From positions 1-23,122 of the forward strand of contig NW_026570648.1 in NCBI RefSeq assembly GCF_019649055.1: DNA of 23,122 bases, read 5' to 3'. This document shows, piece after piece, positions 3,001 through 17,650 of the stretch (position 1 is its first letter; each line of letters opens with the position of its first letter). The position numbers and the translations under genes were made by a program. The notes below the pieces were generated by a model. That model saw only the letters and a list, made by a program, of their open reading frames with translations, made no database searches and was not told the origin of the DNA. This stretch comes from Paramacrobiotus metropolitanus (taxonomy: Eukaryota > Tardigrada > Eutardigrada > Parachela > Macrobiotidae).

Positions 3001-4540
3001 AGGGCTTTATATTTATAAATGGCTCTTTAGGGCGTAATTTCGAGAGGAGGTGTTATTATTCAAACAGGCTTGGTGAGGTGCGCTTGATGCAGTGGGACTT
3101 ATTTCCGGGAGCCAAAAAATGCGATAATTAATGTATTTATATGGAAGGTTTTCTTCTTGTAATGTTTTAACCGTCTATTTTACAGTTATAAGTTTAATGA
3201 AGGGTATCAGGTAATTTACACGCTATCCACCAACCAGTGAAAGCAGGATGTTGCGCAAGAAATATGCTTTCCGTAAGCGTTCTATGACCTGTCATTGTAA
3301 CCGTAAATTTTGACGAGAGAAAACGTTACGCTTACGGTAATTTGTTTAGCACAGCGGTAAAACATTGCATAACAGTATCGTATCCTTTTATGGTTTCTTG
3401 AGATCACCGCTATAGTAGCAAATTACAACACACTAAACCGATTGCTGCTAGGACATTATTCTTTTAACGTTTCCGAATGCCTGCTAACGTAATGGGCTGG
3501 TACGGGAACTGCAGTTTTAATGGGATAAGTCTGCAGATTTTGGCAGAAACGATATGTGGGTAGGCGTGTCGTTAGTGCGAATCCATTACGGTAACCCTAG
3601 ACTTCCATGGTAGCGGTGACTGAGACCGTGGTTCATTATGCTGAGGAAGCCCGTAACAGTTACCATCGCTCGTTACAGCAACTAAAGCCAGTCACGAAAA
3701 TAACAAAATCAATCTGCCGCACTACAGATCGGTGCGATAGCTGTTATTCCCACTGTAATTTCGAAATTATTACGTTAAAGTACGCAAATTTTGAGTTTGA
3801 TTTTGTCCAGTTTGCCCCAGTTATATGCGTGCTATCTTATTGTGTGCGTGAGGCGGCTTTGTACCGTTGCAGAAGGCATTAAATTCATTATTATCAAGCA
3901 ACAAATGTCCCTGTAACGCAAATCCGTAACCTTAGTTAAGGCTCAACTTATTAGTGGTGGCCCATTACAACAAACCGCTGTGTTAACTACAACCAATTAA
4001 AGTAACGTCAGCCAGCTGCATTCGCGATAACCTCTTGCAGTTCGGGTGAGCCGAAGTAAAGCAGTCACGATTTTTGCTTTCATTGTTATAGCTAACAGTC
4101 ACAATAACGCAAACTTAAGCCAGTTAAGGCAAAAAGCAGTGAAACACGGATAAATGCATTAAATGCAATAACTGCAGCTTTGTACGCTCACGTTATCTGT
4201 TGAGGTAACGTGATATCCCTCATGGTAAATAAATTGTAGCTTAATAGTTGTAGCACCGCCATTGTGTCACAGTACCCGCGGCTCGTTACGACAACATTGC
4301 GCCGTTACGCCTTAACGTGACATATGGTCTGTAGTCGCCTGCATTAGGAGAAACGTCATGTTAAACGTTATCTCATAATATGCGAGCCCATCTTATTCAG
4401 AGATGACGCATAACGCTGATTACTGCAACACTAACGTGCACACCAAAATCAAGAGGTATAGTTTGCTGTGTAAGCACGTAAGGTTGAGAAATTTAAGCTC
4501 GTAGAATCGCGGTTGTGTGGTTTCAGGAACTGTGAAGTCA
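1..4540. other. Long gene-poor intergenic stretch
   Basis: I see no ORF with recognisable protein character on either strand. The region is AT-rich. Near the left end, at about 100-160, a short word of the form ATAACGCAAT recurs three times in loose tandem. From about 3280 to 4440 the words GTAAC, GTTAC and TAACG recur far more often than elsewhere (see findings). The ORFs here, such as those at 807-1064, 2767-2976 and 3607-3882, show no domain, no signal peptide and no phase-matched neighbouring exon. I treat them as chance. Confidence 0.6.
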
Positions 4541-4900
4541 CTAAGGTCACCGGCGACCCAAAGGTCAGGGTCGCCGTGTCTTAGAACCGCAGTTTCGGGT
4601 GTCGGGAACCTAAAGGTCACAAAGGTCACATCACACGGCGACCCAAAGGTCAGGGTCGCCGTGTCTTAGAACCGCAGTTTCGGGGTCTCGGGAACCTAAA
4701 GGTCACAAAAGGTCACACGGCAACCCAAAGGTCAGGGTCGCCGTGTCTTAGAACCGCAGTTTCGGGGTCTCGGGAACCTAAAGGTCACAAAGGTCACTAA
4801 AGGTCACACGGCGACCCAAAGGTCAGGGTCGCCGTGTCTTAGAACCGCAGTTTCGGGGTGTGAGGAACCTGAAGGTCAAGGTCGCCGTGTCTTAAAACCT
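4541..4900. repeat. Tandem array of 82-91 base units rich in AGGTCA
   Basis: Four near-identical units start at about 4551, 4636, 4718 and 4809, a spacing of 85, 82 and 91 bases. A degenerate fifth piece ends near 4895. Each unit opens with a perfect 8-base inverted repeat, GGCGACCC and GGGTCGCC around an 8-base loop (the third unit has GGCAACCC). A conserved stretch with TTAGAACCGCAGTTTCGGG follows, and the unit ends with two or three AGGTCA hexamers. I count 13 AGGTCA in about 335 bases, all on the plus strand, many as direct repeats with 3- or 4-base spacers. Unit length differs mainly by the number of hexamers. The array could be a satellite or a cluster of nuclear-receptor half-sites. 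Confidence 0.9.
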
Positions 4901-5819: not shown

Positions 5820-6885
5820 ATGGCAAACAACAGTACATTCCGGATCCTCAACGCATCGCTTGACGCCTGCGACTCTTTAATTAACCACCACAAGTGGGAC
5901 CTCGCTACTGTCATAACACTGGCCATAAACGTGCTAATATTCGCGACCAATGCCTTTGTCTTGGTCGTGTACATTGCTAACTTTCGCCTATGCCGGAATT
6001 TTCATATCTATATTTTCTCCTTGCTGTTCTCTAACTTTCTTTTCGCTGCAATTTTTGGACCAACGGATGCCTTCTTTCATTTATCCGAAATTTGGTGTCT
6101 GGGCCGGGATTTATGTAATCTGCACTTATACGCTACATGGACACTGCCAACCGTGCCGATTTTCATTCACACAGCCATCGCCATTAACCGCTTTGCTGCT
6201 ATCACCTTTCCGGTGCAAAACCGTCTCCTGCACACTACCCGCATCGCTCTGGTGACTAACGCCATCTGCTGGATTGCAGCGCATGCCGTGGCCTTCCCCG
6301 TTGTTATCGTGGACGCGTTAGTTTACCGCGAGCCGGAAACCAAGGCCGGATGCCACATTAATTTCCCCAAGTCCAAATCCCAGCAAGCCTATTTGTACGT
6401 GGCGCAGGCGGTCAATTTGGTCACTCTGCTCGTGATGCTTGGCTTGTTTCCCGTCGTTGTGGTTGTTCGGCGGAGACGTTTAAAGAAACTGATGGCGATG
6501 CGTTCGACCAGGGTTCGGCCTACCGGTAAACAAACGCTGCCAATAATGCTGATATTTTGTCATCGTTACATAATTTACGGTCTGTTATCGTATTATTTTC
6601 AGACGAAAATATACAGCCAGCCGATCATGCGCCCTCTCTAAACAAAAGCACAACAGCCGAACAATCGGAAAAAAACGGTTTCAGATTGCTAGCTCTATTG
6701 ACCATCAGCATTTTTGTTTGCTGGGCAGTCGCCGTGGTGTCTATCCATTCTTTGCCTTCATCCAAAACGCCAAAGTTGTATTTTTCTGGCTGCGCATGGT
6801 GTATGAAGTGCAACCGATATTGGATCCAGTTATTTTCGTCTTGGCATTACCTGAATTGCGCCAAGCAGTGTTTAGAAGATGGTAA
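5820..6885 (+). CDS. Rhodopsin-like (class A) G-protein coupled receptor, two exons, frameshifted in TM6
   Basis: The start is ATG 5820 (MANNSTF, with an NxS/T glycosylation site). Exon 1 is 5820-6525, a 77-base intron runs 6526-6602 (GTAAAC...TTTTCAG), and exon 2 is 6603-6885. Splice phase matches: g plus ac gives Asp. TM1 has ITLAINVLIFATNAFVLVVY. The end of TM3 has INRFAAITFP in place of DRY. Extracellular loop 2 carries GCHINF, and ICL3 is basic. TM6 begins LLALLTISIFVCWAVAV. After about 6736 the family's sequence continues only in another frame: VYPFFAFIQN, then TM7 with ILDPVIFVLALPELRQAVF, ending at TAA 6883-6885. Exon lengths sum to 989, one base short of a multiple of three. No GT-AG intron of usable size fits here. 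It is therefore a pseudogene or carries a one-base sequence error. The ligand is unknown. It belongs to the same receptor style as the gene at 16583-17650. Confidence 0.85.
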
Positions 6886-7148
6886 TCGGCTACGTACGAC
6901 AGATCGGTTTTCTTCCTAATTACATATAATTAGGAAGAAACATATTTACATAGGTCGAGATAGGGCTTCTGTGGTTACATTTTCGGTCGTCAGATTCACG
7001 TGTAAGCAATGGATTTACGGGTAAACTCTTCAATCAGAAAAAATTCAGCTGCAGTTGTCAAAAGTATTTTTTTAGCTCTTCGTGGATTTCTCGTTCTTGT
7101 GGTTACTACGTATGTTATAATAATTATCACAACACTGATTCTCCAAGG
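6886..7148. other. Intergenic between convergent GPCR and kinase genes
   Basis: This AT-rich 263-base gap separates the 3' ends of two convergent genes. A short direct repeat, AATTAGGAAGAAA, lies just after the receptor stop. I see no perfect AATAAA signal for either gene. Confidence 0.5.
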
Positions 7149-10703: not shown

Positions 10704-11459
10704 CAGAAAATTTGTGGCGAGAACCAGAGCTCTTTCTTATTAGTTGGGAATGTTACGCGGTGTACCCGAGCGATCGACTTGCCCATTGTTATAAGCCCGG
10801 CAGCTACCGGCGAATATTTATTATGTTTCCTAACGATTTATGTGCGTACAGTATTAGTGAGCGTTGATACAAAACTAGAAGTGCAACAAAAAGACAAACT
10901 GAACACAACTGGAAGGGAAGCCGTATAAATTTAACTAAATGTGAATGCTACCCGTATCTTTGCGAAGCGAGAGTAATTTGGGCACGTGGAATTCTCGACT
11001 ATGCGACGCTCATGAAATGATAAACACCGACGTAGTGTTCGGCCCTGTTCGCACTCCTCAACGCGTACAGTTATCCCTGCATTGGTGCATAAAAGAACTA
11101 CAGTATATCATAGACGGAAAACGGAAATACTGCACATTTCTTACGTGTAGAAACCCATTTGGTAGAAGCCGCATGGGACTACAGGTGTGACCCGCAAAAA
11201 CGCTTCGTGCAGTAAGCTAACAGCGGTTCCATAATTTTGATATGTACATACATTGAATATGTAAACGTAAACATGGGCATTGTTAAATGCCCAATTACGG
11301 TATAATATTATTAGCATCTGACAGAACAAGAAAGCGCTATTAGATGGGATAAATAAGCTGGATCTTGAAAAGCACTCTACTGGCATAATAAGAGTGAGGG
11401 TGCAGCGATCGCAGTTGCCGTGAATTGCTTGTTGGCGAGCTTGTAATTATTGACGTGTG
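10704..11459. other. Intergenic, no gene seen
   Basis: The plus ORF at 10945-11190 and the minus ORF at 11141-11386 have no domain, splice partner or signal peptide, and I do not call them. Bases 11469-11495 on the minus strand hold the displaced C-terminal codons of the cysteine-rich gene, described separately. Confidence 0.5.
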
Positions 11460-11468
11460 TTGGTATTA

Positions 11469-11495
11469 CCCAACAATGTCACTAAAGACCTGGCA
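11469..11495 (-). pseudogene. Displaced ancestral C-terminal codons of cysteine-rich copy 1
   Basis: On the minus strand these bases read CAG GTC TTT AGT GAC ATT GTT GGG TAA, that is QVFSDIVG-stop. The paralogue ends QIFSDLVG-stop at the same place. They lie about 185 bases past the current stop of copy 1, beyond the insertion. They are either dead or reached by splicing. Confidence 0.8.
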
Positions 11496-11746
11496 ATAGG
11501 GCTGTCATCACGTCATCACACGCTATCACAATCACGCCGATTTCCTGTTCCCAATCCCATCATGCCGAAGAATTGTGGCCGTGATAATGTGATGGGATGA
11601 ATGATGGATTGGGAAGTGATGGGATGATTTTCCATTGCCCAAAATATGTGTTTTAGTGCCAAAATTTACTGTGCTTCAGTTATCCCGCATAACTTTTGCG
11701 CGCTACAAACTTTTCTTCCTTTTTAAATATCTTGCCAGGCTGGCAA
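11490..11746. mobile_element. About 243-base insertion in the 3' end of cysteine-rich gene copy 1, flanked by 7-base direct repeats
   Basis: CTGGCAA occurs at 11490-11496 and again at 11740-11746, like a target-site duplication. Compared with the paralogue at 14373, the sequence between them is extra. Left of the insert the paralogue's last codons and stop are preserved, and right of it the upstream codons are. Inside are repeats of GTGATGGGATGA and an imperfect inverted repeat (11550-11563 with 11601-11613). The right edge forms a perfect 12+1+12 base palindrome at 11727-11751. I see no terminal inverted repeats and no ORF of its own, so the class is unknown. A non-autonomous element or an intron-like insertion are both possible. 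Confidence 0.6.
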
Positions 11747-12147
11747 GATATGGCCCCTTTGCAGGCCTGATTGCATTTGGCGCAGCATTCTTTGACAGCG
11801 CGCTCCGCACTCGGTTCTTTCTTTGTCCCGCTGCAGACGGCGCACAAGTAAGTACCTCTTTCGTTTATACAGCGCGATTGTTGTCGGCAGTTGTTGGTGC
11901 AGTCCTTGCAAGGTTGGAAACTGGGTTCCCCGTGGCAACGACATCCGCAGAAATTTCTGCGGAGAATCATGGAAACTATTACACAGATACGTGTCGCATG
12001 CATTATCAGTGATTTGGATACATTTTATATGCCGGCGCGAATCGTCAGTTTGTAAAATGCGTACACGTACTTGAATCGGGCCGACGCAAACTCACTCGTG
12101 ATGCCGACAACAACAACGACAGCAGTGAACACCACTGGTGCCCTCAT
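11680..12147 (-). CDS. Small secreted cysteine-rich protein, copy 1, two exons
   Basis: Exon 1 is 12147-12071 (77 bases), followed by a 114-base intron 12070-11957 (GTACGT...CCGCAG). Exon 2 is 11956-11680, giving 117 residues. Exon 1 encodes a signal peptide: Met-Arg, a run of Val/Ala, then SEFASA before the mature ARF. The mature part has 14 cysteines, with landmarks GCRC, CRQQSRC, CAVC, ECCAKC and ACKG. It is paralogous to the gene at 14373-15006 (same exon sizes at the 5' end, same phase, same donor). Relative to that copy it has two extra cysteines, one before GCRC and one in CAVC, possibly a new disulfide. Its last 19 residues (PGKIFKKEEK...) come from an insertion. An alternative splice, GTAGCG near 11704 to the AG before 11492, would restore VFSDIVG. 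Function is unknown: a defence peptide, a matrix component or a protease inhibitor are all possible. Confidence 0.8.
11727..11751. repeat. Perfect 25-base palindrome (12+1+12)
   Basis: ATATCTTGCCAG and its exact reverse complement CTGGCAAGATAT flank one central G. It lies across the right boundary of the insertion and within the codons of the new C-terminus of the cysteine-rich gene, so the mRNA could form a strong hairpin there. Confidence 0.85.
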
Positions 12148-12240: not shown

Positions 12241-12600
12241 AGAATATCGAAGCATGATTTCGAGCCGCAATGCCGGTCCAGTATTAATAGTAAATCTTCA
12301 TATTTATCCACGGTGTACGCTTAGTTTGATTAGGGACATCAATAAATGGTGATACAATCATCGGCATCCACAATTCCACATTAATTATCAATATGGATGT
12401 CGCTTAAGCGAGACAATATTTATGATTAATATTGCGCATAAAATCTTAATAACGGGTTTATTAAGTAATATTATCATTAAAAACACAACAGCGGATCCGT
12501 AAACATGACAATTACAATATTTAAAAAACCTTTTAGCCATCCACTTGCTAGTGGCTATTGTTTTCGCAGAGTTTTACCGATGCAGAAATTATCTTGATAC
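12241..12600 (-). promoter_or_regulatory. Conserved upstream region of cysteine-rich copy 1
   Basis: This flank matches 15099-15420 upstream of copy 2 in a series of blocks: CGAAGCATGATTT, GGTCCAGTATTAATAG (TATAAATAG in copy 2), AAACACAACAG followed by GTAAACA, and GCTAGTGGCTATT. The TATA-like block at 12281-12290 lies 134 bases before the start codon. Survival of these blocks in both copies suggests the promoter was duplicated with the gene and remains constrained. Confidence 0.55.
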
Positions 12601-13404: not shown

Positions 13405-14372
13405 CTGAATTTTAGTACGGTTATGTGCGGTTTCAGCCTACGTTTCTTCTACGGCCACGGTACAGTTACGGTAAGAGTGACTGGATTGACCGTACCGTAT
13501 ATGGTTCGACCATTTACCGTCGCCGTTTCTCATACGGTTCTTTACGGTTTGACCGTACCGTAAACGGTAGTGTCGTGTATGGTTTGCCACCTCTAGTACT
13601 GCGGAGCAACTGTCAGCTACGTCCAGGAGCCACCTTTCCATACTGGATGATGGGAATTTACCATTCAGAAAACACAAAATGTTTGCCACACAAAATTCTC
13701 ACCAGGCAAAACAGTGCAATAACTAAATGCTATTACGTGGACCTAATTTTAGGGTTCTTGCGGTTGTGGTGAGCAACTTCATAGTAAGCCCGCACGATCA
13801 TCTATGTAACTTGTAAGCAATTAAATTTTGCATTGAGTTAAGTATTTATCGCTCATTTATTCCGCGCAATTTAAGCGGGGTCTCCTAGTTACTCGATAAA
13901 GTCATGCCGCTTATGGTCTGCCGTCTCCGTTACGATGATTCGTGCACGATTACTGGTGCCATGTGGTGCGTAAGAAAGCTAGAAGCGCTACAAAAATGAT
14001 GCACAGTGCAAACATATACCTAAATTCGGTTAGGAGGCTGCTGCTACTACTGGCGCGAAAGGCAGTGTTGCGCCTCCTATGGTAAGTTGGTAATGAAAAC
14101 GTGCAGCATGTTTCAATGATTGTTCCAGCCAGCTGCCATCCTTATACTGTATGCTACAGTAAACATTTGATAGACACTCTTCAGTGCCGCGCCCGATAAA
14201 TAACTGCTACGAACAGGAATGCGCTATTGTGTCATCAATCAAACGAACGCCACCACAAGCTTTTTAATGATAAACAAATAGACCGTGAAAGGTACCTGAC
14301 TGCGGTACGTAGTTAAAGCAGCGGCCGTTGGTTACTGGCTGGCGATCTTGAGAAAAGGGATTTTTGTTGGTA
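13405..14372. other. Intergenic, with a TACGGT/ACCGTA cluster at 13410-13570
   Basis: The left part carries many TACGGT and ACCGTA words, including two copies of TTGACCGTACCGTA at about 13487 and 13549. It may overlap the 5' part of the unknown minus-strand gene. From 13800 to 14372 I see nothing recognisable. Confidence 0.45.
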
Positions 14373-15006
14373 TTAACCAACAAGGTCACTGAAGATCTGG
14401 CAGGCTAATTCACCTTTGCAGGCCTTGTCGCATTTGCCGCAGCAATCTTTCATACTCCTCTCTTCTTGTGGATTTTTCTTTGTCGATTCGCTGACGGCGC
14501 AAATATAAGTACCTCCTTCGTTCACACAGCGCGTCTGTTGTCGGCAATTTCGTGTGCAGGTCTTGCAAGTCATGAAGCTGGGTTCTCCGGGGCAACGGCA
14601 TCCCCGGAAGTCTCTGCGGAAAAATATGAAAACTGGCTTATAGAAACGTTTGCAGTAATTATCGCTATAGAAGTATGCTTGTTAGCCGTATATGCCAAAT
14701 AAATTGGGAATTTATATAGGGGGAAAAATGAGCCTAGCCGAACCAGTCCCTTGTACTTCTGATGTAAGCCGGCTGGTGTTTTACGTTGTGGCTGTACATG
14801 GCGCTTATGTGCCGGCCTGATTTAACCGTATGTATTGCCGTAACGTCACACTCCAGGCGGGTGACGGCAGAAGTACAGGGAAACGGGCCGAGTAGACTTG
14901 TTTGTCCCCCTATAAAAGCGAATACGTACTTGAATCTGGCCGACACGAACTCACTCATGATGCAGACTACCACAAGGACAGCAATAAAAACCATCGATAG
15001 CCTCAT
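14373..15006 (-). CDS. Small secreted cysteine-rich protein, copy 2, two exons
   Basis: Exon 1 is 15006-14930 (77 bases), followed by a 316-base intron 14929-14614 (GTACGT...TTCCGCAG). Exon 2 is 14613-14373, giving 105 residues. The signal peptide is clear: Met-Arg-Leu, hydrophobic FIAVLVVVCIM, then SEFVSA before ARFK. The mature part has 12 cysteines in the order GCRC, CKTC, C, CRQQTRC, C, DCCGKC, C, C, ending QIFSDLVG. It shares signal-peptide layout, splice phase, cysteine order and upstream DNA with the gene at 11680-12147, so they arose by tandem duplication. Copy 2 looks like the intact ancestral form. The even cysteine count suits an all-disulfide secreted fold. I do not recognise a named family, and it carries no catalytic motif. 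Confidence 0.85.
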
Positions 15007-15098
15007 TTTAAAAGCTGTTGCAGATTTTAAAAACTTAAAATTAAAAACAAATGTGTATAATGGAATACACGTATTAAATTCTGCTGAACACTGAATAA

Positions 15099-15420
15099 CG
15101 AAGCATGATTTGAGAAGTACTGTGGGTCCAGTATAAATAGCACTGTACCCTAGTAGATCTTAATGGCTGTCCAGGGTGTGCGCTTCTGCTTTGGGGCATC
15201 GTTAACTGGTTACACAATCACCGTTGTACTGTCTTAGTAAACAATATTTATAACAATATTAATTGGAAATTCCTGAAGACTGGTTTTATCCAATGGTATC
15301 AGCATTAGAAACACAACAGAAATCTGTAAACACGGCAATTAACTGAGAAATCTCTTAGTAATCAATTGGCTACCGGCTATTTTTGTCTACGAATTGCAGT
15401 TAATTACTGTCACAAAAATT
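15099..15420 (-). promoter_or_regulatory. Conserved upstream region of cysteine-rich copy 2
   Basis: This is the homologue of the copy 1 flank. The block GGTCCAGTATAAATAG at 15125-15140 contains a TATA-type core 125-134 bases before the start codon, and CGAAGCATGATTT lies about 20 bases closer to the gene. AAACACAACAG and GTAAACA recur farther upstream in the same order as in copy 1. Confidence 0.55.
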
Positions 15421-16582: not shown

Positions 16583-17650
16583 TTAGCGAAACATCGGAAA
16601 CGTCGGTGTTAACTTCAACCGGCGCATACAAAAGCCACGCAAATCATCCATGGCAGCCATAAAAAGCAGCGGATCGATGGCCGAGTGCAGCATCTTGAGG
16701 ATATTAGCGGTGCGGTACAAGTTCTGATCGTTGACGAGACTAGGCATCAGGTAATACGCGTTCATCGGCGTCCAGCATACCACGACGCTGCTGGTTAGGA
16801 CGATAAGGATGCGTACGCTGTGCTGCGAACGGCGTGTGCGGCTGTTCATTCCGTTGCCGCCCGTGACGGCGCCCCCACCGCGTCGTGTTGATTCCGTGGC
16901 CGATGGGGAATTGCTGTCCGCTGTCGGCTGCGCCGCTGGCTGTTTAGCGCGTACCCGCTGCATGCGCCGGCGCCGGCACAAAATCAGCGGACAACTGGCC
17001 ACGATCAACACTTCCGGGGTTACCATGAACAGCACATTGAACGCGGCATTCCACTGCCGCAGACCCGGGATCGCCTGGTTGAGGTTGCACCACTGGTTGA
17101 GTAATACGGAGCGCGGATAACCGGCGTCGATAGCCACGGCCGGCACAATGAAGAGGAGGATGGCGGTGTACGTGCCGACGCAGATGGCCAGCGCCAGTTG
17201 CCGCGTGTGCCGGCGTCGATAGGAGTGCGGCTGCAGAATGGCCCACAGCCGGTTGAAGCACATGAGGGCGTGGCACACCGCCATGAAGGCGACGGTGGCG
17301 GTCCTTAACGTCAGCTGGAAGCCGCAGAGCAGGGAGGCCTGCTGGTTGGTGATGATGTCTTTGATGGCCACTACCAGCGGGTTCTGCAGCACGGCGCTGA
17401 GGAAGTTACTTCCGGCCAGGCTGATCAGGTAGACGCTGAAGCCGCTGCGTAACTGCGGCTCGACGACGTACATGGCCAACAGAAATCCGTTGAAAAGCAC
17501 GGATACAGTGCAAATCACTAACGTGGCGATCTGGGCGCTGTTGAGATGAGCCAGGCTATTATAACTAGGGACTGACAGGTTGCTGTTATAACTAGGAATA
17601 CGGACTGACAGATTGGAAATCGTCCAACTGAGCGTGCGGTTTACGTCCAT
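16583..17650 (-). CDS. Rhodopsin-like (class A) G-protein coupled receptor, single exon, intact
   Basis: I chose ATG 17650 (MDVNRTLSW), giving 355 residues. The frame is open to 17794, but the extra 48 residues show no signal peptide and precede a normal N-glycosylated start (NRT, NLS). All seven membrane segments are present. They include TM1 IATLVICTVSVLFNGFLLAM, TM3 ending CFNRLWAIL (NRL in place of DRY), TM5 LFMVTPEVLIVASCPLIL followed by CRRRR, TM6 ILIVLTSSVVVCWTPMNAYY, and TM7 SAIDPLLFMAAM (DPLLF in place of NPxxY). Cys in CGFQL and WCNLN should form the conserved loop disulfide. ICL3 is a Pro/Ala/Gly/Ser-rich linker. The N-terminus repeats NLSV-PSYNS (17614-17555). Coding GC is far above the flanks. 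It belongs to the same style as the gene at 5820. The ligand is unknown. Confidence 0.92.
   Translation of the reverse strand: MDVNRTLSWTISNLSVRIPSYNSNLSVPSYNSLAHLNSAQIATLVICTVSVLFNGFLLAMYVVEPQLRSGFSVYLISLAGSNFLSAVLQNPLVVAIKDIITNQQASLLCGFQLTLRTATVAFMAVCHALMCFNRLWAILQPHSYRRRHTRQLALAICVGTYTAILLFIVPAVAIDAGYPRSVLLNQWCNLNQAIPGLRQWNAAFNVLFMVTPEVLIVASCPLILCRRRRMQRVRAKQPAAQPTADSNSPSATESTRRGGGAVTGGNGMNSRTRRSQHSVRILIVLTSSVVVCWTPMNAYYLMPSLVNDQNLYRTANILKMLHSAIDPLLFMAAMDDLRGFCMRRLKLTPTFPMFR
17555..17614 (-). repeat. In-frame tandem duplication in the GPCR N-terminus
   Basis: NLSVRIPSYNS is followed directly by NLSVPSYNS, and the DNA copies (CTGTCAGTC...CCTAGTTATAA) are nearly identical. This suggests a recent duplication that adds one N-glycosylation site. 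Confidence 0.8.

Follow-up and report, generated by a model that had tools for sequence, protein, structure and literature searches.

How did one of two neighbouring paralogues come to end differently from its sister, with the end that the two would otherwise have in common still legible behind its stop codon? The locus was analysed within a stretch of 23,122 nucleotides (hereafter the window), where the two genes lie in tandem on the minus strand: copy 1 at 12147-11680 and copy 2 at 15006-14373. The original prediction held that an insertion had replaced the C-terminus of copy 1 and left the old end behind it, either as C-terminal exonisation of the insert or as the birth of an intron. The coordinates given there, the 19 added codons with their stop, and the old VFSDIVG-stop were all recovered from the sequence. 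The observation itself (an insert, a new tail and a homologous old tail behind it) is confirmed.

The splice signals are common to both genes (donors CAA/GTACGT, acceptors CCGCAG), with inferred introns of 114 nt in copy 1 and 316 nt in copy 2. Over 98 alignable codons the copies are identical at 220 of 294 nucleotides and at 64 of 98 residues, and the Nei-Gojobori estimates are dS 0.58, dN 0.25 and dN/dS 0.43. Given this ratio and the frames open in both copies, the two look like maintained rather than decayed genes, as judged from a single short pair. The product of each is probably a small secreted protein, with a signal-peptide-like leader recognised by eye. Counted from residue 25 (11956-11740 compared with 14613-14397), copy 1 has 14 cysteines and copy 2 has 12. 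The two surplus cysteines of copy 1 would permit one further disulfide. Every alignable cysteine lies upstream of the insertion point, and the altered part therefore sits behind the core. The upstream flanks (12242-12290 and 15093-15140) have in common a 49-nt block with 82% identity (blastn, E 4e-8), and the duplication thus took in the putative promoter.

Table 1 Features of the two paralogues and of the segment that interrupts their homology. Positions are those of the window.
Feature	Position	Strand	Description
Copy 1, exon 1	12071-12147	-	Start codon and hydrophobic signal-peptide-like leader (by eye); homologous to copy 2 exon 1; GTACGT donor next
Copy 1, intron	11957-12070	-	114 nt, GTACGT...CCGCAG; inferred from conservation with copy 2
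Copy 1, exon 2	11680-11956	-	Host part 11956-11740 with the cysteine-rich domain, then 19 new codons and stop
Junction palindrome	11727-11751	.	Perfect, 25 nt (12+1+12), across the upstream junction; RNA hairpin -14.0 kcal/mol
Direct repeat, upstream copy	11740-11746	-	TTGCCAG, 7 bp, exact
Insert	11490-11739	-	250 nt, downstream repeat counted in; interrupts homology with copy 2
New codons	11683-11739	-	19 codons, PGKIFKKEEKFVARKSYAG; stop 11682-11680
Direct repeat, downstream copy	11490-11496	-	TTGCCAG, 7 bp, exact
Old C-terminus (putative relic)	11466-11489	-	VFSDIVG-stop; 20/24 nt identical to copy 2; tblastn row; preceded by CAG 11492-11490
3' flank	11411-11465	-	Homologous to copy 2 flank, 37/55 nt identical; within the 85-nt blastn block
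Copy 2, two exons	15006-14930, 14613-14373	-	End QIFSDLVG-stop

There was no Pfam family for copy 1. The match of copy 2 to Metallothi_Euk2 (E 0.017, 15.9 bits against a cut-off of 27) was not accepted, and neither was the single PDB sequence match (E 0.61). Protein relatives were also sought in viral and prokaryotic contig collections, which are little suited to an animal protein: none of the 30 and 167 pattern matches passed tblastn. The AlphaFold prediction of exon 2, made from a two-row alignment, had a mean pLDDT of 41, too low for use. Elsewhere in the window, Pfam recognised rhodopsin-type receptor (7tm_1) open reading frames at 5820-6641 (E 3e-22) and 16583-17650 (E 2.5e-23), and one open reading frame matches Pkinase; with the inferred spliceosomal introns, these give the window a eukaryotic look. 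Other features of the window include: a tandem array at 4539-4878, with four units of about 82-91 nt, an internal near-palindrome CACGGCGACCC...GGGTCGCCGTG and many AAAGGTCA motifs; a perfect palindrome at 6909-6940, with 14-nt arms TTTCTTCCTAATTA / TAATTAGGAAGAAA and a 4-nt centre; and a repeat containing GACCGTACCGTA at 13483-13568, present in two copies 63 nt apart.

The alignment of the two copies runs to TGCCAG, breaks, and in copy 1 picks up again 250 nt later, at another TGCCAG. Two separate blastn blocks reflect this, one over exon 2 (238 nt, 74%, E 4e-40) and one over the old tail and 3' flank (85 nt, 74%, E 2e-11), and in copy 2 they overlap by the 6 nt TGCCAG. After this motif copy 2 ends within seven codons (IFSDLVG-stop) and copy 1 after 19 codons and a stop. 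The seven-base repeats predicted on either side of the segment proved to be exact copies of TTGCCAG on the minus strand (11746-11740 and 11496-11490), a heptamer that occurs six times in the 23-kb window when both orientations are counted. The gap in copy 1 can be slid by 7 nt. Among 200,000 random window points paired at 250 nt, the insert site itself included, a slide of at least 7 nt was obtained at only 0.135% (at least 6 nt at 0.298%), and the repeat is therefore a trace of how the copies came to differ: by insertion with target duplication, or by deletion between repeats. The density of differences immediately ahead of the junction (5 of 9 nt) was not special, at least five differences being present in 31 of 209 9-nt windows of exon 2.

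By default, the insert would be translated unspliced and would give the copy 1 protein a new, slightly longer C-terminus, and the old tail would most simply be a relic, unread behind the new stop. The account that we consider reasonably probable is that the insertion occurred in copy 1 after the duplication and is translated as the new C-terminus. The tandem duplication would have come first, and about 250 bp would then have entered the last exon of copy 1 directly behind the CAG of its last glutamine, with TTGCCAG on either side. With less confidence, we infer that the insert arose in the repair of a staggered double-strand break with fold-back copying, in which gap filling would have produced the direct repeat and fold-back synthesis the palindrome. 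Translation would then enter the insert, add 19 codons and stop, and the seven old codons and their stop would stay unread in the 3' flank.

The palindrome, which the original prediction does not mention, has the arms ATATCTTGCCAG and CTGGCAAGATAT around a central C. The upstream junction is its centre: the first new codons repeat the last host codons in reverse complement, and the stretch so repeated extends 5 bases deeper into the host exon than the TTGCCAG repeat. An inverted copy of the break-side sequence (12-nt arms, 1-nt centre), as break repair would leave, is thus present at one junction and would fit fold-back copying at a broken end. Twenty simulated windows of equal length contained one palindrome with 12-nt arms in total. 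The real window is richer than the simulation, which counts against this account: it contains four palindromes with arms of at least 12 nt, of which two belong to a single satellite array and another lies at 6909-6940. Even when judged by the real background, it is unlikely that a palindrome would fall by chance on a given junction, and we estimate the probability at about 1% or less. A second inverted repeat (11477-11486 and 11652-11661, 9/10 nt), which would extend a hairpin outside the insert, was judged likely to be chance. Two further points weigh against break repair with fold-back copying: more than 200 nt of filler is a lot for fold-back copying to supply on its own, and no donor for it was found in the window.

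The order of events was approached through the old tail, with copy 2 as the only unoccupied site seen for comparison. The 20/24 identical nucleotides of the old tail are followed by 8/8 identical nucleotides, and the farther flank is identical at 29/47. The Fisher tests of old-tail conservation are weak, another point against the preferred account: p is 0.10 against the farther flank and 0.34 against exon 2, neither significant. For a tail under no constraint in either copy, the binomial probability of at most four mismatches in 24 nt is 0.013 at the synonymous rate (0.40) and 0.25 at a rate of 0.25, and spans 0.013-0.46 according to the rate assumed. A stem GTTGGT/ACCAAC (14366-14387, -6.0 kcal/mol) lies across the copy 2 stop codon, with most of its letters kept in the copy 1 relic, and may explain part of the old-tail identity. 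The old-tail conservation and the junction palindrome together modestly favour, and do not prove, copy 1 as the derived form, with an insertion later than the duplication and fairly recent relative to it.

Tentatively, the same segment might be an unclassified or truncated mobile element, flanked by a 7-bp target-site duplication and translated as a new C-terminal end. The direct repeat is exact, as such a duplication would be, though end-joining and deletion leave the same sign. The insert is also partly self-complementary (11497-11640, rich in ATCAC and GATGGG), and the DNA folding of 11490-11746 has a z of -2.3, with 5 of 200 shuffles folding equally well. On the other side, the search for further copies of the insert that the original prediction had proposed, carried out by blastn on the 23-kb window, the only part of the genome covered, gave none: the top-ranking rows were the palindrome of the insert itself and others at chance level, and the best match outside the locus has an E of 0.20. 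Also against an element, there were no terminal inverted repeats (at most 7/20 ungapped matches in eight registers), no A or T run of at least 6 and no A/B box in a simple pattern search of the insert for SINE or LINE features, no Rfam matches at the gathering threshold, and no plasmid or phage match (one 23-mer gave 0 in viral contigs), in collections not expected to hold animal elements. The tRNA scan gave 0 hits, and motifs like GATGGGATG were seen four times in the window against 3.3 expected.

It is rather unlikely that the long form is ancestral and that copy 2 lost 250 bp between TTGCCAG repeats, with a downstream frame joined to its coding end. Such a deletion would leave exactly the junction seen, and in a comparison of the two copies it would look identical to the insertion that we prefer. 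The seven-codon tail would then have been non-coding ancestrally, yet its 20/24 identity implies less divergence than the synonymous rate would give (P 0.013); a constrained 3' flank might nonetheless account for this identity. The deletion must also have opened a frame with a prompt stop, and insertion accounts better for the palindrome.

The birth of an intron, the other half of the original prediction, fared much worse. The spliceosome would join TTT (before GTAGCG, 11706) to GTC (11489), skip 217 nt and restore VFSDIVG. The GTAGCG is present at 11706 and in phase with CCAG/GTC, the in-phase join yields PGKIFKKEEKFVFSDIVG-stop, and the insertion sits at CAG/GT, a site type favoured in intron gain (PMC3443670, from an excerpt). 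Introners with 3-9 bp duplications are known (PMC9860276, likewise an excerpt); no literature on introners in tardigrades was found. However, the donor TTT/GTAGCG scores -6.1 bits against a window median of -5.1 for GT, with 59.9% of 2840 GTs scoring at least as well, and the inferred first-intron donor CAA/GTACGT scores +2.5 on the same matrix, a generic metazoan one. By this generic matrix, the insert lacks the usable GT donor that an introner would have, with an AG acceptor, at or near its borders. At -20 to -5 the acceptor is 50% pyrimidine, without a pyrimidine tract, and an AG 12 nt upstream competes with it. The insert starts with CC right after CAG, and the duplication thus gives an acceptor (CCAG/GTC) and no donor. 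The new codons contain three GTs (11710, 11706, 11693), of which 11706 alone shares the phase of the old tail; with three GTs, at least one in-phase join is expected by chance in about 70% of cases. There is no good sign in the sequence that the insert is spliced out, and we regard the birth of an intron as very improbable. The replaced C-terminus with the old end behind it is thus supported, and intron birth is poorly supported in view of the weak donor, the poor acceptor and a phase attributable to chance. More doubtful still is a half-formed intron at a CAG/GT proto-splice site, with an acceptor from its own 7-bp duplication and low-level splicing from the weak GTAGCG, giving two secreted forms (one ending in the new tail, the other a new/old hybrid) for which the old tail would be selected.

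On our preferred reading, insertion in copy 1 after the duplication, the locus is a clear small case of how a duplicate gene can alter its protein end in one step, with the old end still legible alongside the unchanged sister gene. The palindrome at the junction raises the question of whether the complementary strand of this gene served as the template for the new residues. Splicing of the insert, if true, would make it a rare intermediate in intron birth, and the evidence here speaks against it.

C-terminal exonisation of inserted sequence in a duplicate gene is already known, and the change described here is a new instance of an ordinary, known kind. As in such exonisation, the insert of copy 1 provides both the final codons and the stop, but its source is not identified as a transposable element. 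Compared with introners, as described in an excerpt of PMC9860276, the insert likewise lies in an exon, with a duplication within the 3-9 bp range and one splice site (AG) from the duplicated target, but lacks a donor at its other border, a second copy within the window and terminal inverted repeats. Short direct repeats are present at 43% of gained Daphnia introns and are cited as a sign of staggered-break repair, according to an excerpt of that study (PMC3443670). Unlike these introns, the copy 1 insert carries no sign of splicing and gives a stop and a new C-terminus; like the staggered-break insertions proposed in the same excerpt, it is of unknown source, lies in a coding exon and is flanked by short direct repeats. 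Yeast breaks can acquire fold-back inverted duplications of 5-34 bp (PMC11724301, from the excerpted text). Copy 1 differs from these in its additional filler of more than 200 nt, in the 7-bp repeat that brackets it and in being known here from sequence alone, and resembles them in carrying at its junction an inverted copy of the break-side sequence, 12 nt long here against the 5-34 bp reported in yeast.
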